64,000 nt of DNA, taken from positions 1 to 64,000 of the forward strand of contig NZ_JABBOU010000069.1 in NCBI RefSeq assembly GCF_018853465.1, read 5' to 3'. The stretch is from Acidithiobacillus montserratensis. GTDB taxonomy: Bacteria; Pseudomonadota; Gammaproteobacteria; Acidithiobacillales; Acidithiobacillaceae. Positions 23,964-52,344 of the stretch are shown one piece after another (positions within the stretch are counted from its first letter, which is position 1; every line of letters begins with the position of its first letter). Under the pieces are notes generated by a model. The model saw only the letters and a program-made list of their open reading frames with translations, did not search any database and was not told where the DNA came from. Made by a program: the position numbers and the translations under genes.

Positions 23964-24914
23964 ATGGAATTATTTAAGGCACGTACCCATGTGGATTTCA
24001 TGTCGAGGCGCTGGATATTTCTCGTCATATCTGCGCTGCTGATTGTGGCCTCCGTGGCGGTTTTTCTGGTGCGTGGGCTGAATTACAGTATTGATTTTAC
24101 CGGCGGCACCTTGGTGGAGCTGGCTTTCAGCAAAACTCCGGATCTAGGTGCGGTACGAGGGACACTGACGGCGGCAGGATTTCACAATGTGGTGGTGCAA
24201 ACCTTCGGCGGAGATCGCGACCTGTTGATTCGTCTGCGCACGCAGCCGGGGGAGAGCAGCGCCATAGGCACCCGCATTTTGCAGGTCTTTCAGAAAAATC
24301 AGGCAGCCTATCCTGATGTACAGCTCCGGCGCACTGAGTATGTGGGCCCGGAAGTTGGCAAAGAGCTCCGCAACAAGGGCATCATGGCCTTGATTATTGT
24401 GACGCTGGGGATTCTGATTTACGTGGGGTTCCGCTTTGAATGGCGCTTTGCAGTGGGTGGGGTGCTGGCCATGCTCCATGATCCTATTCTGGTGGTGGGC
24501 TTTTTTGCCATCAGTCAGGAAGAGTTTTCCTTGACGGTCATCGCTGCCTTGTTGGTGATCATGGGTTATTCCCTGAACGACACCGTGGTGGTGTTTGACC
24601 GCATGCGTGAAGACCTTCGCGCCTCGCGCAGCGGGGATGTGGCGGGAATTTTCAATGTAGCCATCAATGAAACCCTGTCCAGAACCGTCATCACCAGCTT
24701 TATCACCTTCATGGTGGCGCTCTCCCTGTTTTTGTTTGGCGGACCGGTCATTCATGGTTTTGCCACAGCCCTGGTAATTGGCGTGGTGGTCGGCACCTAC
24801 TCTTCCATATTTGTCGCCAGCCCTATTGCCCTGTGGCTGGGGTTGAAGCGGGAGCATGTGCTCAAACGCCAGTTCATCAGCTCCAAGGATCGTAACGATG
24901 GCGCCCGTTTGTAA
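23964..24914 (+). CDS. secF: Protein translocase subunit SecF
   Basis: 316 residues. There is one N-terminal span (about 14-34), the SIDFTGGTLVEL motif (about 42-53), then five more spans with GYSLNDTVVVFDRMRE (about 203-218), the SecF counterpart of the SecD conduction motif. Nine bases separate it from secD. A GC-rich hairpin follows about 57 nt after the stop, then tRNA-Ser. Confidence 0.98.
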   Translation: MELFKARTHVDFMSRRWIFLVISALLIVASVAVFLVRGLNYSIDFTGGTLVELAFSKTPDLGAVRGTLTAAGFHNVVVQTFGGDRDLLIRLRTQPGESSAIGTRILQVFQKNQAAYPDVQLRRTEYVGPEVGKELRNKGIMALIIVTLGILIYVGFRFEWRFAVGGVLAMLHDPILVVGFFAISQEEFSLTVIAALLVIMGYSLNDTVVVFDRMREDLRASRSGDVAGIFNVAINETLSRTVITSFITFMVALSLFLFGGPVIHGFATALVIGVVVGTYSSIFVASPIALWLGLKREHVLKRQFISSKDRNDGARL

Positions 24915-24970
24915 GGTGTGTTACTGGCAGCAGAATTGATACTATCCGAACGCTCGGGTTTTGAAGTTTA

Positions 24971-24990
24971 GAGGGCTTGCCGAAGCCCTC
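24971..24990 (+). terminator. Hairpin after secF
   Basis: A perfect 8-bp stem (GAGGGCTT / AAGCCCTC) with a GCCG tetraloop. It lies between secF and the tRNA gene. No T-run follows, so it may stabilise the 3' end of the message or act with Rho rather than being a classical intrinsic terminator. Confidence 0.4.
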
Positions 24991-25015
24991 ATGAAAGCTT
25001 AATGTATGCCTCCAC

Positions 25016-25107
25016 GGAGAGGTACCGAAGTGGCCATAACGGCGCCGACTCGAAATCGGATGGGGGTTAATAGCCCCACGTGGGTTCGAATCCCACCCTC
25101 TCCGCCA
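25016..25107 (+). tRNA. tRNA-Ser (anticodon CGA)
   Basis: The 92-nt sequence folds as a class II tRNA. The acceptor stem is GGAGAGG / CCTCTCC with G73 and an encoded CCA. The anticodon stem CCGA / TCGG holds the loop CTCGAAA with anticodon CGA at 25051-25053. A long variable arm TGGGGGTTAATAGCCCCA and the T-loop GGTTCGAATCC complete the fold. The long variable arm and CGA anticodon mark a serine tRNA reading UCG. It lies only 5 nt from the 3' end of the convergent outer-membrane gene that opens the AT-rich region. Confidence 0.97.
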
Positions 25108-25112
25108 TTTTT

Positions 25113-26585
25113 TCAAAAGGGGATCGTAAAGTTGGCCCCTACATAACTCCGGTGATAACCTGATCCTCCTCCATACGCGCTAGCTATCTCGGTATAACCT
25201 CCAGTAAGACTGATTTGTAAATAATGTGAAACAATATCGGTGATGGTACCGTAAAAATCAGCTACTGGTGTCGTTACGTCATCTACGGTCTGACTACCGT
25301 AGCCCGCATAAAGACGCATCACAGAATAAGGCGAAAATTTCTGCACATATATGACGTACCCCAATGCTTCCAGATAGTGATGAGGGTTGAAATAGCCACC
25401 ATTAACGATACCCACGCTGCTGGTATATGTTCGGAAATATCCCTGAACCCCGAGGCTGATGGGTAGGCTACTGAAACTGTAGAATTCCGGAGTAACACGG
25501 GCTACAACGCCGTCACGTTGAATAGCATCACTAAAGGCTTGATGGAAATATGCTACACCCAATGTGCCAATATTCCTGAGACGACCGAAACCACCTATGC
25601 TGACGGTGTTTACCAGAATTCTATTTTCCACAGCGGTGACTGTGCGAATGGGACCACGGTCATAACTGAGATTGAGTCCCCAAGAATCAGTGGGTTGGTA
25701 ATTGATTTGAGCATTTACATCACCAAAAGTCCACCTTCTTGCAGTGCTGATCCCCCCGATGATACTGTACTGCCAGTTAGTATTCAAAGGAGCTGACCAT
25801 CCACCGTCTAGCGACGAAAAGCCGATCTGACCATTGCTATCGTTGATCTGGGTTTGGCGAAAACCTGCATACCACATGGTTGGACTAAGAGTATTATCCC
25901 CTAGGCCATAGCCTGGAATGGTGACGCCAGCCTGATATATTTGATTAATGTTGTGGTCGCTATCACTGCTGTAATGGTAGCCCAAATTAATTCGATCGTG
26001 TAGAGGATAGTATACATAATCCGAAGTTTGCCTAAAAAGCTGTGCTTGCCATTGGGGTCCAGGGTAAACCTCATGGGGTGCGGAGAGATCCAGATGTTTT
26101 TGGGCAACGGTATCCCAATTTAGTAAAGAGCTGGCAATGGCAGATTGTAATTGTGGGTCCGCACCCATACTGCGAACTGGTTTTAAAGTGTCATAGGCTT
26201 CTCTTGGACGTCCTAAATTGATAAGTGCCCTAGCAAGTCCTACTCGCATGGTTTTCTGGTCTTCAGAACTGCGGGCGATGGATATGCCTTCAATGTAGGC
26301 ACGTTCTGCTTCATGAGAATTGCCGACCCATAGTGCGGCATAACCCAGGCCGGCCAAGGCAGCAAGTCGATCCGCCTGATATTTTTCAAGATTGAGATTG
26401 ATTTCGTTACGCGCTTTACGAAAATATGATAAGGCCAATTGAGGATGTTCTTGTGTTAAAGACTCGCGCCCCAGCCGGATGTTTTGGCTTGGGTCGGCGG
26501 CGGCAATGGTGGCACCAGACAACAAAAACAGTCCACCAATGGCAACCATTATTAGAATAGAGCAATTTTTCACTTGGTACCCCAT
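25113..26585 (-). CDS. TPR/beta-barrel outer-membrane protein, probable exopolysaccharide porin
   Basis: 490 residues with a signal peptide (cleavage near residue 29-31, ATIAAADP). Residues ~35-155 form TPR-like helical repeats (ALSYFRKARNEI, ALAGLGYAALWVGNSHEAERAYIEG, VGLARALINLGRPREAYDTL). The rest, from about 185 to the end, has alternating aromatic strands and ends in F, as in an outer-membrane barrel. This layout (periplasmic TPR plus barrel) is that of PgaA/BcsC-type polysaccharide exporters, though smaller. It overlaps the glycosyltransferase gene by 16 nt, which supports a synthase/exporter pair. Function is inferred; a NfrA-like or PgaA-like annotation would also fit. The 3' end is almost flush with tRNA-Ser. 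Confidence 0.7.
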   Translation of the reverse strand: MGYQVKNCSILIMVAIGGLFLLSGATIAAADPSQNIRLGRESLTQEHPQLALSYFRKARNEINLNLEKYQADRLAALAGLGYAALWVGNSHEAERAYIEGISIARSSEDQKTMRVGLARALINLGRPREAYDTLKPVRSMGADPQLQSAIASSLLNWDTVAQKHLDLSAPHEVYPGPQWQAQLFRQTSDYVYYPLHDRINLGYHYSSDSDHNINQIYQAGVTIPGYGLGDNTLSPTMWYAGFRQTQINDSNGQIGFSSLDGGWSAPLNTNWQYSIIGGISTARRWTFGDVNAQINYQPTDSWGLNLSYDRGPIRTVTAVENRILVNTVSIGGFGRLRNIGTLGVAYFHQAFSDAIQRDGVVARVTPEFYSFSSLPISLGVQGYFRTYTSSVGIVNGGYFNPHHYLEALGYVIYVQKFSPYSVMRLYAGYGSQTVDDVTTPVADFYGTITDIVSHYLQISLTGGYTEIASAYGGGSGYHRSYVGANFTIPF

Positions 26586-28003
26586 TTTTTTCTAAGGCTC
26601 AACAATTCAGAACCATATCCGGCTAAAGAGGCTGGTGACATGAGTAGTTGAGAAAGGAAAACATAAAGAAACATGCCGCGAAGATTTTTGCGAATATGTA
26701 TCCCTCGTTCTTTAAACATGGTGCTTTGCACAGAAAAAATTACCACGTTATTAATTGCTGCTAAAGGTAATAGTAAGAGAGTTATTGGTCCGGCAAGCAG
26801 GAAAAACCCGAAGCAAGCGGCAATTATTCCTGGGATAAAAAATAAAAGGTAACTAATATCCAGCCAGGGAAATAACATATTTATAAAAACAAACTGCAGA
26901 GTTATTCTCCTTTTTAGGAAAATTCCGGGATGAGCTCGTATTGCTTCAAACATGCCGCGCGCCCAACGTCGGCGTTGTTGAAAAAGCTGTTTATAGGTTT
27001 CTGGTACGTTGGTAAATACAATAGCATTTTCCGCATAACCAATCCGATATCCTTGCTTTAGCAATCCCCAGGAAAGGACAATATCTTCACCAACACAGGG
27101 GGCCCATCCTCCCATCTCCATAACCAGGTCACGCTTATACAGGGAGAACGCACCCTGGGCAACCAGGGTGCCCTGATAAAGACTTTGAACTCTTTTGACA
27201 ACTGCAATACCATGAAAATAATCCCATTCCTGTATCCTGGTAATCCATGATTTTCTTGAGTTGCGTACAGCGATAGCTCCAGCAACTGCGGCAGTACCCT
27301 CTGGATCGCCAAGATAACGACCCACAATATATTTTAAGGCATCTTTGTACAGAAATGTATCGGCATCGACGGTAATGATGAGGCCATGCGAAGCTGCAGC
27401 CAATCCTGCATTAAGCGCACTGGCTTTCCCTTGATTTTTCTTTTGCTGAATAATTTTTATTCTTGGATCAGTTACTGTCTCGACAATATCTATCGTTTTA
27501 TCGGTAGATCCATCGTCAATAACAATGATTTCTATGATTCCGGAGTAAAATTGATTGAGAATGGATTTTAGTGTGTCTTCAATGGCATTCTCCTCATTGT
27601 ATGCAGCAATTAATATGCTTACTGCTGGCAGTTCATCCGGTGTGCTTATGGGTGGTCTACGATCCAGCAAAATACTGAAAATAATAATGCCAGAAATATA
27701 ACCAGGAACGATAGCTATGCCACCAATTGCGAAAATGGTCAGCACCCATCCAAATGATTTGGCAAGGCTATCCATCCAGGGTAAAGCAACCCAGATGCTG
27801 AATAGCACCCACAAAATTGCTCCGAATTGTGCAATGAGAAATTTGCTATAAACAGGAATATAAACTTTCTTTGCATTTTGGTTGTTCGCTTCTGAGTTTT
27901 CTTTAGTTGCAGCGTTTGTGTTGATAAGTGTTGCACACTTTCGTGTAGGCAATGTGGCAGCCACATTTTTATTTAGATCTTTCTCGGTTTGTGTTTCTAG
28001 CAT
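26570..28003 (-). CDS. Membrane family 2 glycosyltransferase (processive polysaccharide synthase type)
   Basis: 477 residues. Two N-terminal spans lie at about 55-77 and 86-113, followed by a cytoplasmic GT2 domain and about three to four C-terminal spans from residue 367 on. The processive-synthase motifs are all present: DDGS (163-166), DAD (213-215), GED (305-307) and QRRRW (343-347). PgaC (poly-GlcNAc), hyaluronan and cellulose synthases share these. No PilZ domain or PgaB-type deacetylase is seen. A TTG at 28057 would add 18 residues, but the ATG at 28003 is preferred because a sigma-54 promoter overlaps the upstream alternative. It forms an operon with the TPR/barrel gene. The sugar cannot be deduced. 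Confidence 0.85.
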   Translation of the reverse strand: MLETQTEKDLNKNVAATLPTRKCATLINTNAATKENSEANNQNAKKVYIPVYSKFLIAQFGAILWVLFSIWVALPWMDSLAKSFGWVLTIFAIGGIAIVPGYISGIIIFSILLDRRPPISTPDELPAVSILIAAYNEENAIEDTLKSILNQFYSGIIEIIVIDDGSTDKTIDIVETVTDPRIKIIQQKKNQGKASALNAGLAAASHGLIITVDADTFLYKDALKYIVGRYLGDPEGTAAVAGAIAVRNSRKSWITRIQEWDYFHGIAVVKRVQSLYQGTLVAQGAFSLYKRDLVMEMGGWAPCVGEDIVLSWGLLKQGYRIGYAENAIVFTNVPETYKQLFQQRRRWARGMFEAIRAHPGIFLKRRITLQFVFINMLFPWLDISYLLFFIPGIIAACFGFFLLAGPITLLLLPLAAINNVVIFSVQSTMFKERGIHIRKNLRGMFLYVFLSQLLMSPASLAGYGSELLSLRKKWGTK

Positions 28004-28040
28004 GTTTATCCCAACCCGTTGGTTTTGTTCTAGAAGGAAA

Positions 28041-28056
28041 AGCAAATAATATGCCA
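28041..28056 (-). promoter_or_regulatory. Sigma-54 (-24/-12) promoter before the polysaccharide operon
   Basis: On the minus strand TGGCATATTATTTGCT matches the RpoN consensus TGGCAC-N5-TTGCW: GG and GC are exactly 10 nt apart, the -12 element TTGCT is perfect and the -24 TGGCA is intact. The expected transcription start is near 28030, giving a leader of about 27 nt to the ATG at 28003. Confidence 0.65.
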
Positions 28057-28406
28057 ATTAAAAAACTAATATTTTCAGTATGATACAATTTTTAGGTAAC
28101 ATTGACCGTGAAGATAATAACAAAAATAAAACAGTAATGCATGAATGCGGCCCATTAATTCAATTTTTTCAAGTGGTTACAAATTTATTTTTAGTGTTGC
28201 ATCCACGTTACAGTATTTTTTTAATTTTTTGCTTATCAATCATGCAGTACAGATGGGTAGTGCAAACGGGTTGTCTGGTGTTGATTCTCCGGGTATCCAA
28301 AAAATTCTGTTTGGGGTATCATTTTGATCAAAGAATGAGATTGGCAGAAAGTGTACCACATTAGATCTATGGCTCTAGAAACAGAAATATTAGGAGTGTC
28401 TTAAGT
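28057..28406. other. AT-rich intergenic region between divergent GT2 and barrel genes
   Basis: About 350 bases without a convincing gene. It is AT-rich, with short open frames that show no protein-like character. It probably holds upstream activator sites for the sigma-54 promoter on the left and the promoter of the barrel gene on the right. No perfect -24/-12 pair faces right; TTGGCAGAAAGTGTACC at 28341-28357 has a good -24 half but AC instead of GC at -12. Confidence 0.5.
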
Positions 28407-29462
28407 ATGCGAAATCGATTTGTTCTTGGTCTTGTTCTCACAGTGTTGAGTGGATTGACCTCAGAAGCTAGTGCGGCTGACCAAACTCTGAAAGCCCCGC
28501 CCGAGTCCGCCAGCAAAAAAGCGATTTTGCAACAAAATTCAGATTTCTTTTATCCGCAATTAACGCTGCAATCCAGTGTTTCTTATGCTTACTCTGATCA
28601 AAACACGTTGAATCTCAATGGCTTTCTTGCTCTGGGTGCCATTTTTCTTGGAAATATAAATATTTCAAAAGTCAATTCAAGTATTTATACATTCACTGAA
28701 TCAGCCTACTATCCCATAACTAATCGTTTGCAGTTAGTGCTGAACGTGCCGATTGTCTATCGCCAGAGTGTTTATCAAATTGGTGGTGCACAGGATGCAT
28801 CCAAAAGCTACAGCCAAGCGACCGTTTCCTCGCATGGTCCTCGCCTTGGCGATATCAGTTTTGGTGGTTACTACCAGATTTTCAAAGAAAGCAAAAGGTT
28901 ACCAAGTTTAACAGCTAGTCTTTTGGTTACTGCACCTACTGGCATAAATCCCTATGGAATAAAGGTCTATCAACCTGATGCCGGCAACTCAAATCTCATC
29001 GTCCCGACTAATTTGCCTACTGGTAATGGCGTTTGGACCTTGACCCCGGGGCTCTCTTTTGTAGCCACCTCTGATCCAGCGATTTTTTTTGGAAGTGTGA
29101 GTTACTATTATAATTTCAATAAAAATTTTCCTGATATCAGTACGACAATGGATCAGGTCCAGCCCGGCGAAGTTGCACTAGGAAATGCATTTCAATACAG
29201 CCTGGGAGTTGCTTTTGCCTTGAATGATCGACTAAGTTTGAGTACTTCATTTGCGGATCGTATTCAGTCCGACACGCAAATTCGCACACCAGGTGGTCCA
29301 TGGACGACACTGGTTGGAAGTGGGGCTAATGTGGCTATTGCCAATGTAGGAATGACCTATGCTTTCAACTCGAAAACCTCATTGATTATGAATCTCGGTG
29401 CCGGAATTACAAGCAGTGCGCCAAGTTTTCAGCTTACGGCCACTATTCCTTATAATTTCTGA
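28407..29462 (+). CDS. Outer-membrane beta-barrel protein, FapF-like candidate
   Basis: 351 residues. The signal peptide ends near residue 23 (EASAADQT), and a short linker (about 24-48) is followed by a chain rich in alternating aromatic strands ending in NF, as in porins. Conserved-looking pieces are RLQLVLNVPIVYR, GPRLGDISFGGYYQ and LLVTAPTG, the pattern of the 'transporter / meta-pathway phenol degradation-like' barrel family. In the Fap system FapF is the barrel that secretes amyloid subunits, and this is the only barrel beside the Fap-like genes here. It lacks the long N-terminal coiled coil of Pseudomonas FapF and is convergent to the other genes, so the assignment rests mainly on context. 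An AGGAG site precedes the ATG. Confidence 0.55.
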   Translation: MRNRFVLGLVLTVLSGLTSEASAADQTLKAPPESASKKAILQQNSDFFYPQLTLQSSVSYAYSDQNTLNLNGFLALGAIFLGNINISKVNSSIYTFTESAYYPITNRLQLVLNVPIVYRQSVYQIGGAQDASKSYSQATVSSHGPRLGDISFGGYYQIFKESKRLPSLTASLLVTAPTGINPYGIKVYQPDAGNSNLIVPTNLPTGNGVWTLTPGLSFVATSDPAIFFGSVSYYYNFNKNFPDISTTMDQVQPGEVALGNAFQYSLGVAFALNDRLSLSTSFADRIQSDTQIRTPGGPWTTLVGSGANVAIANVGMTYAFNSKTSLIMNLGAGITSSAPSFQLTATIPYNF

Positions 29463-29486
29463 TGTTAACCAATATTATACAATATC

Positions 29487-29523
29487 AGGAGAGATAACTA
29501 ACACTATTTATCTCTCCTTTTTT
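29487..29523 (+). terminator. Intrinsic terminator of the barrel gene
   Basis: A perfect 11-bp stem, AGGAGAGATAA (29487-29497) with TTATCTCTCCT (29508-29518), and a 10-nt loop is followed directly by a run of Ts. It lies between the convergent barrel gene and fapE-like gene and separates their transcripts on the plus strand. Confidence 0.85.
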
Positions 29524-29535
29524 AATTCACAAAAT

Positions 29536-30306
29536 TTATTGTGTTCCAGCTAATCCATGCATGGCGCCCAAAATTGACTGCAATTGCGCAAGGTTCTGAA
29601 CGTTCTCTTTGTTTTGATTGACACCCAAGGTAAGTTTCATTTGATTTTGTATGATGTTTAAATTCGTACCAACCTGAGCTATTTGGAACAGTCCATTGGT
29701 TCCTATTCCTTGACGAACAGATGAACCCCCATCATTGATTAACATGGATAACTGTCCATTTTGTACAGTCATGGTAGTTGTGTTGTTTATATTGTGTGTT
29801 CCTTCCGCCAGGGCTGTGCCTGAAATGGGTGTGTTCGGTGTACCTTTAATCACATTCAATGACATTCCGTTCTGAATTGAATTGCTATTACCCGCAATTT
29901 GAATGGCTTGCGTTACTCCCTTGGTGTTATTAAGTCCGCTACCATCAACTTGATTATTGATACTCTGGGTAGCTTGAGGAAGGGTACCATTTACTGAATA
30001 GGTAATAGTGGGCAAGAAAATATTCCCAGAACTGTTTAGTGCGACATTCATGGTGCTGCGCATGGGTGTTTGGTTCTTTCCGGATGTCCAGTTGGTTTGC
30101 ATTTCAACGCCAAAGTAAACGATGGAGCCACCAATGACGCCGCGACCTACTATTTTGGATAAGGATTGATCAGAAACTGGTTTGAAACTGACGGGTAGTA
30201 CCTGTGTGAAAGGGAGTGCAAAAGCTACGGTACTAAGAAGCAGTGACGAAACAACCACACAACAACCTGCCACTGCAGCAGTTTTATGGTATAGGTATTC
30301 GTTCAT
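29536..30306 (-). CDS. Secreted FapE-like protein of the amyloid locus
   Basis: 256 residues with an N-terminal hydrophobic signal (about 10-30, ending TVAFA). Residues 44-60 read VSDQSLSKIVGRGVIGG, followed by SIVYFGVEMQTNW; I recall a similar 'LSD-x-L-x-x-V-x-G then FGV-M-x-W' start in FapE proteins. The C-terminal half is Asn/Gln/Thr/Ser-rich with repeated xxIxQxxxxNxIQNxMxLxV strands (IAGNSNSIQNGMSLNV, VGTNLNIIQNQMKLTLGV), a beta-solenoid-like pattern that fits amyloid companions. It is the last gene on the minus-strand run and follows the C39 peptidase by 28 nt. Substrate of that peptidase is a plausible role. Confidence 0.55.
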   Translation of the reverse strand: MNEYLYHKTAAVAGCCVVVSSLLLSTVAFALPFTQVLPVSFKPVSDQSLSKIVGRGVIGGSIVYFGVEMQTNWTSGKNQTPMRSTMNVALNSSGNIFLPTITYSVNGTLPQATQSINNQVDGSGLNNTKGVTQAIQIAGNSNSIQNGMSLNVIKGTPNTPISGTALAEGTHNINNTTTMTVQNGQLSMLINDGGSSVRQGIGTNGLFQIAQVGTNLNIIQNQMKLTLGVNQNKENVQNLAQLQSILGAMHGLAGTQ

Positions 30307-30334
30307 GATAAGCCTCTCTCAAGTATATTTATGA

Positions 30335-31051
30335 TTAAAAATAATTAGCCTGATCAAAACCAAAGTGCGCCGGAGATATTTTTGTGCTTGGTAAAATACC
30401 ATGCAGAAGTTTAAGTGCGCTTGGTGGTTCTGGCGGGGTAAGAAGTACCGAGTTGGGTTCAAAGCTTTTCCCAAATACAGCAAAAACAATCTTGTTCCAA
30501 TCCTTGAGAAATTGTTCTTTAGGCATGATGCGATTCCCGAGTGCCGGATCCGCCAGATAAACATGTTTTGATCCCGTTTTTTCAAGAACAACAAAGTGTT
30601 TGTAACCGCCAAGATCCAGAAGCACTATGACCGGAATATGAATTTTTTCGAGCTCCGCGGGTGTGACGACGTATCCCTCGCCATTTAGCCCGATCTTGTC
30701 TACATACTTTTTAAGATCCAGCATGGAAAATCCGACTTTTTTAACTTCTGCTGGATTGCTCACGGTGAACAGGCCTTTTATGACCTCTTCTTCGTCAACA
30801 TTCTGGCCGAATGCGTATTTGAGGATAGTTGCTAATGAAGCGGCTCCACAAGAAAAATCCGTGCGTTGCCGAACTACATGAATAAAATGCATCCCTATCA
30901 TGTTGGTGACAGGTAGATGAATGACGCCCGCTCCGGGAATTATACCGCCAAAGGCTGCTCCCTTTGCATCATTGCTTTGGATGGTAGTAAATACCGCTGC
31001 CATGATTAGGCTGGAAAAGATAAAAGGACGAATTGCCTTGGAATTAAACAT
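30335..31051 (-). CDS. Secreted C39-family peptidase, FapD-like
   Basis: 238 residues. The N-terminal signal (about 8-32) should send it to the periplasm. The peptidase domain has the C39 catalytic cysteine in RTDFSCGAASLATIL (about residues 62-76), the histidine in GGYKHFVVLE and the aspartate in VYLADPALG, so the triad is complete. C39 enzymes usually cut double-glycine leaders of bacteriocins while fused to ABC transporters. Stand-alone secreted versions are found in Fap operons as FapD. Position between the amyloid repeat gene and the FapE-like gene is the same as in fapC-fapD-fapE. No transporter domain is attached. Confidence 0.8.
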   Translation of the reverse strand: MFNSKAIRPFIFSSLIMAAVFTTIQSNDAKGAAFGGIIPGAGVIHLPVTNMIGMHFIHVVRQRTDFSCGAASLATILKYAFGQNVDEEEVIKGLFTVSNPAEVKKVGFSMLDLKKYVDKIGLNGEGYVVTPAELEKIHIPVIVLLDLGGYKHFVVLEKTGSKHVYLADPALGNRIMPKEQFLKDWNKIVFAVFGKSFEPNSVLLTPPEPPSALKLLHGILPSTKISPAHFGFDQANYF

Positions 31052-31083
31052 GATGATGGCCTCATGATGAGTTTGGTAAAGCT

Positions 31084-31103
31084 GCCACCCCGTTGGGGGT
31101 GGC
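31084..31103 (-). promoter_or_regulatory. Hairpin between fapC-like and fapD-like genes
   Basis: A perfect 8-bp GC-rich stem (GCCACCCC / GGGGTGGC) with a 4-nt loop lies in the 69-nt gap after the major repeat protein. No T-run follows, so partial termination or 3'-end protection is more likely than full stop. Such a device would keep the major subunit message more abundant than the downstream genes. Confidence 0.55.
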
Positions 31104-31120
31104 GAGGTTTCATCTAGTGC

Positions 31121-32854
31121 TTACTGAGCGCTGGCAATCGCCATGGTATTGGACTGCTGGTTGCCGTTGCCGGCAGCGACATTCAGTCCGATGTTTCCGG
31201 ATGCGTTCTGCAAGGCATTGCCACTGACGCTGCTGGTATAGGTTGAGGCCACGGTTCCACCAAGATTGGCGTAAGCCACTTGGCTCACTGGTGCGCTCGC
31301 GGTAGCCATGGCGTGGGTAGAAGCCACTGAAACCAGAGCTAGCCCGTTCTGCTGCTGGTTTTGAACCCCAGTAGCCACGTTTATGCCGATATTGCCGCTG
31401 GCATTTTTTGCTGCATTGCCGTTGATAAAGCTGGAATCAGTGGTGTTGGTATCAGAGGCAATGTTGCTGACGGAAAGCTGATTGGCAGCAGCTGTGGCGG
31501 AGGCCCAAGAATGACCCTTTCCTTTGCTGACATAGCTTAGAGCAGTAGAGTTACCCTGTTGGTTATTGGCGCCAGAAGCCAGATTCACGCCGATGTTGCC
31601 AGCGGCATCTTTCAGAGCGTTGCTGCCGACCCCAGCAGCATTATTCTGGTAGGACAGATACCAAGCCAAGGGGCCAAAAATCACAGGGACGCCCTGTGAA
31701 CTGAGGATTCCACCCATAGACTGGCTGGTACCCGCAGTGGCGGTGGCACCGTTGCTTTTGTTGCCGGTGGCAATGGCCAGAGAGTTGCTCTGCTGATTGC
31801 TGATACCGGCAGCCTGATTGAGACCGATGTTGCCAGCAGCGTTGCTCAGTACATTCCCATAAAGACCAGTTTCATTGCTGCCACCAACCATGTGGCCATA
31901 GTTCAGGGTGCTGAGGTTGGCCTCATTGCCCATGTTCTGGTTGGTATAGCTCGCAGAGTTGACCATGCTGGCTTTCTTGGCAGCGCTGGCGATGGAGGTG
32001 CTGTTCTGCTGCTGATTGAAACTACCAGAAGCCATGTTTACTCCGATGTTGCCTGCGGCTCCCCGTAAGGCGTTGGCTGTCAGGTCTACAGCGTTGGCAC
32101 CACCCACCACTTGTATAGCGAGGTTTTGCCCCTGATTCTGCGCGGTATTGGTGGAAGCGTCGGAATTTGACGTTTTCTTGCTGACTGAGGCCAATGCCAT
32201 GGAGTTGCTCTGTTGGTTGCTGATACCAGCAGCCTGGTTGACACCAATGTTGCCAGAAGCGTTGCTCAAAGCGCTTCCGCCGATTTGGGTATTGTTGGCA
32301 TTTCCCTGGCTGCCGTAGTTGTAGACGCTGGCGCTTAAATTCTGACCAAGATTCTGGCTGGTGCTGGTAGCTGCAGAGGAATTTCCAGCTTTCTTGGCAG
32401 AGGATACTGCCAGATTGTTCTGCTGTTGGTTGAAGATGCCAGAGGTCATGTTGGCACCAATATTGCCTGAGGCGCCAGAGAGAGCATGATCGCTCATGTT
32501 GACATTGTTGCTGCCGTTAATCATCTGGATAGCAAGATTGCTGCCCTGATTTTGGGTGGCAGAGACAGCAGCGGTTGATGTAGCATGGGTCTTACCGTTG
32601 GCGGCCAGAGAACCGGCGTTGGACTGCTGGTTTTGGTTGCCAGTGGCGATGTTGACACCAACGTTACCAATGCTTCCATCGCCAGCATTACCAAGCATAT
32701 TGGCATTGTTAGTAGAGTTCAGAACGGAAATTTGAGTGTTGCTTTGGCTCATCTGCCCGTTGTTGACACTGGCACCGGCGGCGAAAGCCATGGGAGCGGC
32801 CACGAGGGCAGCGATGGCAATGGCAACTGGACTTAACTTGATATAACTTTTCAT
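31121..32854 (-). CDS. fapC: Repeat-rich functional amyloid subunit, FapC-like
   Basis: 577 residues: a signal peptide (1-25, ending AFA), then eight repeats of about 65-75 residues, each opening with a version of GNIGxNxAxGxxNQQxN and followed by an Ala/Ser/Lys stretch and a TxQNxGxNL strand. The last copy ends the protein. Asn, Gln, Ser, Ala and Gly dominate, there is no cysteine, and charged residues are few. The GNIGVN-AAG-NQQ unit is what I recall from Pseudomonas FapC/FapB, the fibre subunits of Fap amyloid. The missing C-terminal CxxC would differ from Pseudomonas FapC. Expected role is the main cell-surface fibre. A GAGGAGAA ribosome site lies just upstream of the ATG. Confidence 0.72.
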   Translation of the reverse strand: MKSYIKLSPVAIAIAALVAAPMAFAAGASVNNGQMSQSNTQISVLNSTNNANMLGNAGDGSIGNVGVNIATGNQNQQSNAGSLAANGKTHATSTAAVSATQNQGSNLAIQMINGSNNVNMSDHALSGASGNIGANMTSGIFNQQQNNLAVSSAKKAGNSSAATSTSQNLGQNLSASVYNYGSQGNANNTQIGGSALSNASGNIGVNQAAGISNQQSNSMALASVSKKTSNSDASTNTAQNQGQNLAIQVVGGANAVDLTANALRGAAGNIGVNMASGSFNQQQNSTSIASAAKKASMVNSASYTNQNMGNEANLSTLNYGHMVGGSNETGLYGNVLSNAAGNIGLNQAAGISNQQSNSLAIATGNKSNGATATAGTSQSMGGILSSQGVPVIFGPLAWYLSYQNNAAGVGSNALKDAAGNIGVNLASGANNQQGNSTALSYVSKGKGHSWASATAAANQLSVSNIASDTNTTDSSFINGNAAKNASGNIGINVATGVQNQQQNGLALVSVASTHAMATASAPVSQVAYANLGGTVASTYTSSVSGNALQNASGNIGLNVAAGNGNQQSNTMAIASAQ

Positions 32855-32896
32855 GCTATTCTCCTCAATTGGTTGAAAGATTAAAGTTGGTACTAC

Positions 32897-33322
32897 CTAC
32901 TGAATTACCCCGGGCGCTATCCCAAGGGTGAAGCTGTTTGCTGATGTGTTGCCTGAACCTGCTACTTGGTTGATTTGGGCAATACCTTCAGCTCCTTTGA
33001 AAGCTGTGGGACTGATGACCACATTATTCAAACTGTTGGGTGTTGACGATGGAACCTTCTTTGCTGTATTAGTAATATTTTGCGATAAAGTGCTATTTGA
33101 TACAGGTCTGATAGCACCAATAACCATTTGGATGCTGTTGGCTTGAGCATTACCTACGCCTGCAACTTCATTAATAGCCATTACACCTGTACCGTTTACA
33201 AACGCATTACCTTCAATAACGCTGCTTGATTGATTTACGGGTGCAATCTGAGGGGCGGCTGCAGCATTCATGGAAAACCCGGTAAATATCAGGGTCAATC
33301 CTAAAAGAAATTCTGGCTTCAT
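32897..33322 (-). CDS. Small two-repeat secreted protein, FapB-like (possible nucleator)
   Basis: 141 residues, with a signal peptide of about 23 residues (NAAAAPQ). Two copies of a repeat are visible: GVMAINEVAGVGNAQANSIQM (about 46-66) and GIAQINQVAGSGNTSANSFTL (about 114-134). The spacing of N, G, Q and N resembles the GxNxAAGxxNQQxN unit of the neighbouring 577-residue protein. It lies 42 nt upstream of that gene, where fapB lies before fapC. A nucleator or minor-subunit role is inferred from position and repeats only. Confidence 0.55.
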   Translation of the reverse strand: MKPEFLLGLTLIFTGFSMNAAAAPQIAPVNQSSSVIEGNAFVNGTGVMAINEVAGVGNAQANSIQMVIGAIRPVSNSTLSQNITNTAKKVPSSTPNSLNNVVISPTAFKGAEGIAQINQVAGSGNTSANSFTLGIAPGVIQ

Positions 33323-33352
33323 TGCTCTCGACTCCCCTCGTCTAAAAATTTA

Positions 33353-33757
33353 TTAGCGATTTGTGGACATGCTGATGCTTTGCAAATTGTTTCCACCGCC
33401 CAATTCAATAGAGCTTTTACCGCCGCCAGAGCGATTCTGCATTTCATCCCAGAGAACAACGCTATTACTGTTGCGTGTAACAGAGGGTAAATTGACTGGA
33501 ACACCCTTGCCAGCAATTTCACCAAGCATTTTGTCGGACAGAGAGTTGTCGCGCCCGATGAATGGATCTGACTGGATGGCTTCTGAAGAAGTTTTACTAA
33601 AGGTTTTTTGTTGAATGATTGTGCCCGTTATTTTTAAATGGTCTATTTGCTTCACGGCAGTTCCTGCATGGGCAAAACCTATGCACAGCGTCCCGCACAC
33701 AAGACCCACCAAAAATGATGAACGTTTATGTATGAACTGATATTTTTTAGCATCCAT
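33353..33757 (-). CDS. First gene of the amyloid operon, secreted protein with LSxxxLxxIxGxG motif (FapA position)
   Basis: 134 residues. A signal peptide is plausible (hydrophobic 14-30, GFAHA). Residues 73-85 read LSDKMLGEIAGKG, which resembles the end of a double-glycine leader (LSxxELxxIxGG) and matches a motif in the FapE-like protein. The C-terminal 50 residues are Ser/Asn/Gly-rich and end in LQSISMSTNR. I do not see clear sequence similarity to FapA, and the assignment is positional. The ATG lies about 29 nt downstream of the predicted sigma-54 start site; its ribosome site is weak. Confidence 0.55.
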   Translation of the reverse strand: MDAKKYQFIHKRSSFLVGLVCGTLCIGFAHAGTAVKQIDHLKITGTIIQQKTFSKTSSEAIQSDPFIGRDNSLSDKMLGEIAGKGVPVNLPSVTRNSNSVVLWDEMQNRSGGGKSSIELGGGNNLQSISMSTNR

Positions 33758-33796
33758 TTCGTATGCACCAATAAGTAGTGGTTACGGGATACCCAA

Positions 33797-33812
33797 AGCA
33801 GCTATCGTGCCA
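33797..33812 (-). promoter_or_regulatory. Sigma-54 (-24/-12) promoter of the amyloid operon
   Basis: On the minus strand TGGCACGATAGCTGCT has the full -24 element TGGCACG and GC at the correct 10-nt spacing; the -12 element CTGCT differs from TTGCW at one base. Transcription would start near 33786, about 29 nt before the first ATG at 33757. Confidence 0.65.
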
Positions 33813-33820
33813 GCCATTAA

Positions 33821-33842
33821 AACATATATATATCAATATGTT
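33821..33842. promoter_or_regulatory. Perfect inverted repeat AACATAT-N8-ATATGTT upstream of the amyloid promoter
   Basis: Seven-base arms with an 8-nt AT-only-but-one spacer, 8 bases upstream of the -24 element. Activators of sigma-54 promoters usually bind farther upstream, so this could be a site for an additional regulator or a bending protein. Confidence 0.35.
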
Positions 33843-34129
33843 GTATATTCTTGTGGTTCAGACCCTCTGATACTTTTTGTAATGCAGGAGTAACACGATC
33901 ATATGTCCATCCGTGCGATGCTTTTCTGCTCAGAAAAAATAAATCATATTTATCAATGTGCTATTATTTATTTTGAGGGTATGCAAAAGGTGTGTTGAAA
34001 GTGTAAGTTCTTTAGTACAGCCAATCTGCTTGGACGGTCTGAGGTTGTCTTTTGAGCCTGATCGTCAGTTTCTATAAAAATCTCATCTTGGGAATGCAGA
34101 TATGGACAGAGTTTTTTTGTGCCATGACA
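33843..34129. other. AT-rich upstream region of the amyloid operon
   Basis: About 290 bases between the amyloid promoter and the groEL terminator, without a protein-like open frame. The base composition is as AT-rich as the amyloid genes and changes sharply at the groEL terminator. It is the natural place for enhancer-binding-protein sites. Confidence 0.45.
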
Positions 34130-34160
34130 ATAAAAACCGGCCCCCAAAAGGAGGCCGGTT
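34130..34160 (-). terminator. Intrinsic terminator of groES-groEL
   Basis: On the minus strand AACCGGCCTCC and GGGGGCCGGTT pair around a TTTT loop and are followed by TTTATTG. It lies about 33 nt after the groEL stop. Confidence 0.88.
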
Positions 34161-34192
34161 CTCTGACAGTACCGACGTCTGGATGAAAAGGC

Positions 34193-35857
<1,665 letters not shown>

Positions 35858-52109: not shown

Positions 52110-52344
52110 GGTGATCTCCTCAAATTTTCGTGTGCTCCAGAGGAGTAAGCAAGGAGTGTGCCAAAAATATTATCCTATGCGAAACAAAGGCGTAAATTTT
52201 AAGCACGCGTCGATGTGCCGAAATTTGTCACGATTTGACGACAGTGGCGGAGCTGTCAATAGCCCTTTGTAGGTGGAACCCCATGTTTGGTCAGGGGGAT
52301 ATTGAAAGCATCCCTCTGCCAGGTGTAGAGCTTCCAGGCATCAC

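Follow-up and report, generated by a model that had tools for sequence, protein, structure and literature searches.

The 64,000-nucleotide stretch of Acidithiobacillus montserratensis DNA analysed here (contig NZ_JABBOU010000069.1, positions 1 to 64,000; the window) carries, between secF and a tRNA-Ser gene on one side and groL on the other, eight genes that comprise a Fap amyloid system (28407-33757), confirmed by sequence comparison, and a two-gene polysaccharide unit (25113-28057). The original prediction had placed Fap-like genes beside a family 2 glycosyltransferase (GT2) and a tetratricopeptide repeat (TPR)/barrel exporter, and this arrangement was upheld: all eight open reading frames (ORFs) are present at the positions given earlier, the GT2 matches PF00535 at 1.4e-34, and the profile search proposed against the Fap families returned significant matches for FapB to FapF, those for FapC, FapD and FapE included.

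The genes fapA-B-C-D-E run on the (-) strand from 33757 to 29536 with intergenic gaps of 28-69 nt; the predicted order fapA-B-C-D-E(-F) holds for A to E, but fapF is inverted relative to them and separates fapE from the GT2 gene. FapC (31121..32854, (-)), the major amyloid subunit, was identified by its profile match (NF058558) and eight GN(I/V)GxN repeats, contains 23% Asn plus Gln, and at 196.2 bits is alone in exceeding its own curated NCBIfam cut-off (195 bits). A 51-nt DNA repeat is present eight times, and the repeats are therefore far beyond chance. FapB (32897..33322, (-)), a two-repeat amyloid subunit and by analogy the putative nucleator, scored 64.3 bits against a cut-off of 190, and the C39 cysteine peptidase FapD (30335..31051, (-)), in which the catalytic residues Cys68, His152 and Asp168 are kept, scored 222.4 bits against 330. 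The small two-repeat protein, the NQ-rich eight-repeat fibre protein and the secreted C39 peptidase named in the original prediction are thus all recovered. FapE (29536..30306, (-)) has a profile match of 83.8 bits, below a cut-off passed by none of 369 genomes of the class and by 7 of 398 of the phylum, the seven being members of the single family f161. FapF (28407..29462, (+)) likewise fell below its cut-off (NF058560, 345.8 bits) and matched the crystallised FapF 5o65 at 7.6e-83 (phmmer). FapA (33353..33757, (-)), the secreted starter of the original prediction, is named from its position and from conserved relatives at the same place, and has a conserved VVLWDE motif; no match was obtained in the domain or NCBIfam libraries.

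The polysaccharide unit consists of a processive, PgaC/IcaA-like GT2 polysaccharide synthase (26570..28057, (-)), with the motifs DDG, DAD, GED and RRRW, and, overlapping it by 16 nt, a 490-aa outer-membrane polysaccharide exporter (25113..26585, (-)) with an export signal (by eye), a TPR domain and a 16-strand barrel, whose nearest folds are PgaA, BcsC and PelB. By sequence and predicted fold, the pair has both hallmarks of synthase-dependent polysaccharide secretion, a processive GT2 and a TPR-barrel secretin. The exporter family is narrow: of 7996 candidates scored, 20 proteins reached an expectation value (E) of <=0.001; identity to the window exporter is 44% for two of these and 25% for a third. 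The true start of the GT2 is probably the ATG at 28003 and not the listed TTG (28001-28057 stretch), because the TTG overlaps a sigma-54-like site and is not called as the start in two of five loci of the same gene order. Poly-N-acetylglucosamine was dropped as the product because the GT2 scored 198 bits against the PgaC family, below the cut-off of 422, and no full PgaB deacetylase was found in the genome (best, a 35.4-bit partial match; cut-off 321.9).

Linkage in relatives and the short FapF

A search of 29 family genomes for FapD and the exporter identified a strong FapD (E <1e-50) in 15, a divergent one (34-37%) in three, a weak C39 match only in one, and none in ten. The exporter was found in 12 of the 29 and shares one locus with fap genes in 11 of these 12 (G000, G001, G010, G012, G015, G016, G017, G018, G021, G026 and G027, with fapF of G010 cut by the contig end, its first 45 residues lying beside GT2), so that the unlinked distribution that would have spoken against the original prediction did not appear. 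The linked loci come from three of four genera and fall into several gene orders: groL-fapABCDE-fapF(inverted)-GT2-exporter, as in the window; fapABCDE-GT2-exporter-fapF(inverted); GT2-exporter-fapF facing fapEDCBA (G012); and an arrangement with fapF before fapA and a fapF fragment after the exporter (G026). GT2 and exporter lie directly downstream of fapE in G017, G021, G026 and G027. Ten of the 15 strong-FapD genomes have the window-type pair, and two (G002 and G022) carry instead a TPR-YaiO exporter, a HEAT protein and a GT2. Together with an epimerase/GT2/bactofilin-like set seen at 11 loci, the latter module, seen at two, occupies the same fapE-fapF junction in relatives.

The window FapF matches NF058560 at profile positions 91-420 only; a plug-like segment appears to be retained (by eye), and the N-terminal coiled coil and linker are missing. 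Published sources, cited here as throughout from excerpts, describe coiled coils in all FapF homologues (PMC6173795) and, in Pseudomonas, a FapF coiled-coil domain critical for FapC secretion (PMC5557850). By this character of Fap systems the window locus falls outside; it is still filed as a Fap variant because the other components match. The spacing between export signal and barrel anchor is bimodal across FapF proteins, at 50-67 residues in 26 (52 in the window) and 112-177 in 22, after exclusion of five that lack an anchor: the L055 fragment, the divergent L064, and L089, L099 and L135, the last three long and without GT2. Within a GT2 search span of about 10 to 19 kb per locus, shorter at contig ends, polysaccharide-synthase modules were found at 22 of 26 short-FapF loci versus none of the 22 measured long-FapF loci; five loci found through FapE (G525, G686, G720, G614 and the second G787 locus) were left out.

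A tree of 51 FapF sequences united 24 short FapF in one clade (support 96/98), whose members come from family f1 (Acidithiobacillus and its kin), from family f168 and from G291 (second copy); the FapF of L148 and L149 are identical. Two f168 FapF are 75 and 77% identical to a FapF labelled Acidiferrobacter sp., and on the basis of that one label the f168 lineage is probably Acidiferrobacter-like. Modules occur at 22 of the 24 clade loci (9 window-like, 2 TPR-YaiO/HEAT/GT2 and 11 epimerase/GT2/bactofilin-like). Independent origin of the three modules with short FapF, which would amount to convergent coupling, was rejected on account of the single clade in the FapF tree, which is therefore read as one lineage with module exchange.

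A candidate FapD leader in FapE and FapA

In the window FapE, residues 44-56 read VSDQSLSKIVGRG and lie some twelve residues past the export signal (by eye). They form a C39-leader-like motif, VSDQSLSKIVGR↓G (arrow, candidate cleavage position); FapA carries LSDKMLGEIAGK↓G at residues 73-85. The FapE motif, typically L(S/T/K/P)DxELxxMRG(R/K), is present in every one of the 58 labelled FapE of the loci; a strict script picked up 53, and 5 that failed only its downstream filter were recognised by eye. The script also recovered the motif in 23 of 26 FapA, and the remaining three have L, T or no G(K/R) at that place. The motif ends in G(K/R), rarely GG. Double-glycine leaders of C39 peptidases follow a consensus of hydrophobic residues at -12, -7 and -4, Gly at -2 and Gly or Ala at -1, and the FapE and FapA alignments fit it at the three hydrophobic positions and at -2.

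In a profile comparison, FapE and FapA aligned over 18 columns that coincide with the motif (E 1e-4, probability 57%). Full-length homology of the two proteins was rejected, as the alignment covers these motif columns only, which argues for a shared short signal and not a shared domain. When scored with a leader matrix built exclusively from FapE sequences of other families, FapA (13.1) and FapE (11.7) took first and second place in the 20-kb window set, ahead of FapC (7.7) and the best unrelated ORF (6.3). One 12-mer used to build the matrix, that of L140, was wrong, and the decoy ORFs used for comparison included at least one probable FapA, that of L147. The presence of the motif in both proteins makes FapE and FapA candidate substrates of FapD, putatively cut at G(K/R)↓G.

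True GG occurs in both FapE and FapA of L064, and RGG in the probable FapA of L147. Similar motifs lie in the FapF linkers of L090, L091 and L144; the remaining long FapF yielded no linker motif of this form, looser matches aside. Published excerpts describe Fap proteins as lacking a canonical C39 sequence, leave the FapD substrate open and report that N-terminal peptides of FapE are missing (PMC5557850), and a 2025 review gives FapE and FapF as the presumed substrates of FapD (PMC12822426). Two side observations concern the same motif. Locus L064:5405-7146 (G014) holds a divergent Fap-like system of the same genus, with the canonical GG leader site in its FapA- and FapE-like proteins and a FapF-like gene nearby, and the Paraburkholderia protein P0025, labelled peptidase C39, resembles FapE with the leader motif, its name probably having been transferred.

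Promoter-like sites and base composition

Sigma-54-type -24/-12 sites, each with one mismatch, lie upstream of fapA (TGGCACGATAGCTGCT, 33797..33812, (-)) and upstream of GT2 (TGGCATATTATTTGCT, 28041..28056, (-)). The scan, which allowed <=1 mismatch with GG and GC fixed, covered the window and 20 family loci selected for fap or exporter (701,728 strand-bases) and returned 37 matches, 9 of them perfect, of which eight are at fapA. Of 17 family fapA loci, 14 have such a site at this gene, a count of 11 plus a further 3 near differently called starts. The one-mismatch GT2 site recurs in all five loci of the window gene order, with inverted fapF between GT2 and fapE; since the overlapping TTG is not called a start in two of the five, a promoter is favoured over coding sequence. 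An unrestricted scan of the whole window at <=2 mismatches gave 61 matches versus 50.6 expected, no enrichment, and the sigma-54 claim therefore rests on position and conservation. RpoN is reported in excerpt to regulate fap positively in P. fluorescens (PMC8202526). Activators of the VpsR-type sigma-54 class flank fapF in L063 and L092, and two VpsR-domain matches, one of which falls in a frame interrupted by a stop, lie elsewhere in G000. The ninth perfect match lies outside the locus, at 52148-52163 (-) of the window, with no obvious gene starting just downstream.

The prediction that the block is more AT-rich than its surroundings holds for seven of its eight genes, whose third-position G+C content (GC3) is 0.35-0.43, whereas the ten flanking genes that were measured have values of 0.56-0.71; fapC, at 0.60, departs from the rest of the block. 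The tRNA-Ser (CGA) gene (25016-25107) ends 5 bases from the stop codon of the exporter gene, which is on the opposite strand. Insertion of an island at this tRNA was rejected because no direct repeat of >=16 nt involving the tRNA end was found. A domain library scan of the eight locus genes identified no integrase, and no clean empty site was found because secF and groL are far apart in the single-contig genomes G003 and G007, both without strong FapD. In an RNA family scan of 24800-34300 the tRNA alone reached the gathering score, a sigma-70-like scan gave 11 sites versus 16.4 expected from shuffles, and terminator-like sites numbered 16 versus 9.7.

Proposed function and relation to known systems

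We consider it likely that the locus serves the co-regulated secretion of an amyloid and a polysaccharide for one biofilm matrix. The Fap export route and subunit roles in this proposal are taken from Pseudomonas: Sec would export FapA to FapE into the periplasm, FapD would cut FapE and FapA at the double-glycine-like leader, and unfolded FapC, FapB and FapE would leave through FapF to form amyloid, with FapB as nucleator. The GT2 would polymerise a polysaccharide and extrude it across the inner membrane; passage through the outer membrane would be by way of the TPR-barrel protein. RpoN would switch on both arms, and with both under RpoN control fibre and polymer would be deposited together. 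The proposal draws on profile or structure matches for all parts except FapA, the linkage, the sigma-54-type sites, the alternative modules and the shared low GC3.

Several points weigh against it. The function is deduced from sequence. The FapF coiled coil missing here is reported in excerpt as critical for FapC secretion in Pseudomonas (PMC5557850), all module-bearing loci belong to one FapF clade and are therefore not independent cases, the GT2-exporter pair of G020 sits on an 8.6-kb contig without fap, and no module was seen in fap-bearing G009 (where the contig ends in fapF), G023 or G024. At <=1 mismatch, the GT2 site was found in none of the eight other scanned family loci with the same GT2, in which that gene lies directly after fapE or is relocated (the split GT2 of L054 counted once), nor was one found at the different GT2 of L060, L063 and L064, which were left out of that count; the five loci that have the site are close relatives. 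At -1 of the leader, the window FapE and FapA have K or R in place of the G or A of classical C39 sites, and their matrix scores lie just below the 99.9th percentile (13.6) of 4750 decoy ORFs, so that conservation and not score carries the leader claim. The export signal of FapD would place cleavage in the periplasm, in contrast to classical C39 processing.

An improbable alternative to joint secretion is that the exopolysaccharide unit is unrelated to the intact Fap system and merely its neighbour, the two having been acquired together on an AT-rich segment without sharing function or control. The low GC3 common to seven of the eight genes, the adjoining tRNA-Ser and the existence of genomes with one unit but not the other are consistent with such a history; it accounts poorly for a linkage that three genera keep through several gene orders, for the use of one junction by different modules, for sigma-54-type sites on both units, and for the lack of an integrase among the eight genes and of a tRNA-end repeat of >=16 nt. 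That the exporter serves Fap directly, its TPR domain replacing the docking role of the lost coiled coil so that amyloid and polymer leave through one coupled machine, would fit the confinement of modules to short-FapF loci and the TPR domains of type I and type II exporters but is very unlikely, given that a TPR match is missing from the only type III exporter looked at, the YaiO barrel of L092, that short FapF occurs without a module inside the clade (L061 and L156) and outside it (L093 and L139), and that all linked cases fall in a single FapF clade.

Returning to joint secretion, a wider proposal, which we rate slightly short of an even chance, is that acidophilic sulfur and iron oxidisers (such as Acidithiobacillus and an Acidiferrobacter-like family) harbor a separate Fap branch in which the coiled coil of FapF has been lost and amyloid secretion is tied instead to a polysaccharide synthase-exporter of exchangeable type, with sigma-54 control at least partly shared, and that FapD matures FapE, FapA and, where present, FapF linkers at the G(K/R) leader across Fap systems.

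The locus shares with Pseudomonas Fap (fapABCDEF) the genes fapB to fapF and, as assigned by position and conserved relatives, fapA, as well as the C39 FapD, the repeat fibre proteins, the FapF barrel and the RpoN link, and differs in its inverted and separate fapF, the missing FapF coiled coil, the eight repeats of FapC and two of FapB, and the polysaccharide pair. Like PgaABCD (poly-GlcNAc) it has a PgaC-like GT2 and TPR plus a PgaA-type barrel, but no PgaB or PgaD is in the locus, the exporter has only 490 aa, and the PgaC score is below the family cut-off. With the BcsC/BcsA (cellulose) and YaiO/GT2 systems it shares the logic of a GT2 and an outer-membrane barrel, YaiO barrels being found in the relatives' alternative modules; the window exporter, in contrast, is nearest PgaA with no YaiO match, and its GT2 has no PilZ domain match.

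The original prediction had regarded the combination as undescribed. For the Fap half this does not stand, since excerpts of Dueholm 2013 already report Acidithiobacillus Fap with a separate fapF, a two-repeat FapB and a 4-16-repeat FapC (PMC3792158), as in the window, and the published accounts of Fap in Acidithiobacillus and F. caldus (PMC3792158, PMC6173800, PMC10853474) include the detection of FapF and FapD in F. caldus vesicles. The excerpts of these accounts make no mention of polysaccharide linkage, coiled-coil loss or a leader motif; excerpts of the open-licence literature, the scope of the search, likewise yielded no link of Fap to a polysaccharide, no FapF without a coiled coil and no leader ending in G(K/R). 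A survey of 1172 fap clusters leaves neighbours unmentioned in the excerpted section (PMC12392863). Three elements thus go beyond what was found in print: the link to polysaccharide export, the clade of short FapF and the leader proposed for FapD. How Acidithiobacillus attaches to minerals is of importance for bioleaching. An excerpted biofilm study, having found no curli genes, left filamentous, probably proteinaceous material unidentified (PMC5852609); the locus is a candidate source of both fibre and polymer. The leader motif turns the FapD-substrate question into one at residue level, and the short FapF bears on the true need for a coiled coil in amyloid export.

Partial loci were also encountered. 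At L057:6849-12370 (G018), fapC is cut short and fapD and fapE are absent while GT2, exporter and fapF are retained, and the polysaccharide arm may there outlive the amyloid arm. G016 has, beside a full locus elsewhere, a second fap copy (L047, G016:C1:2311000-2326500) with fapF in separated pieces and no polysaccharide pair. In G026, fapD is split by ~1.3 kb at L052:7850-9875, and a small contig (L053) carries another, partial locus in which fapD and the exporter gene are broken.

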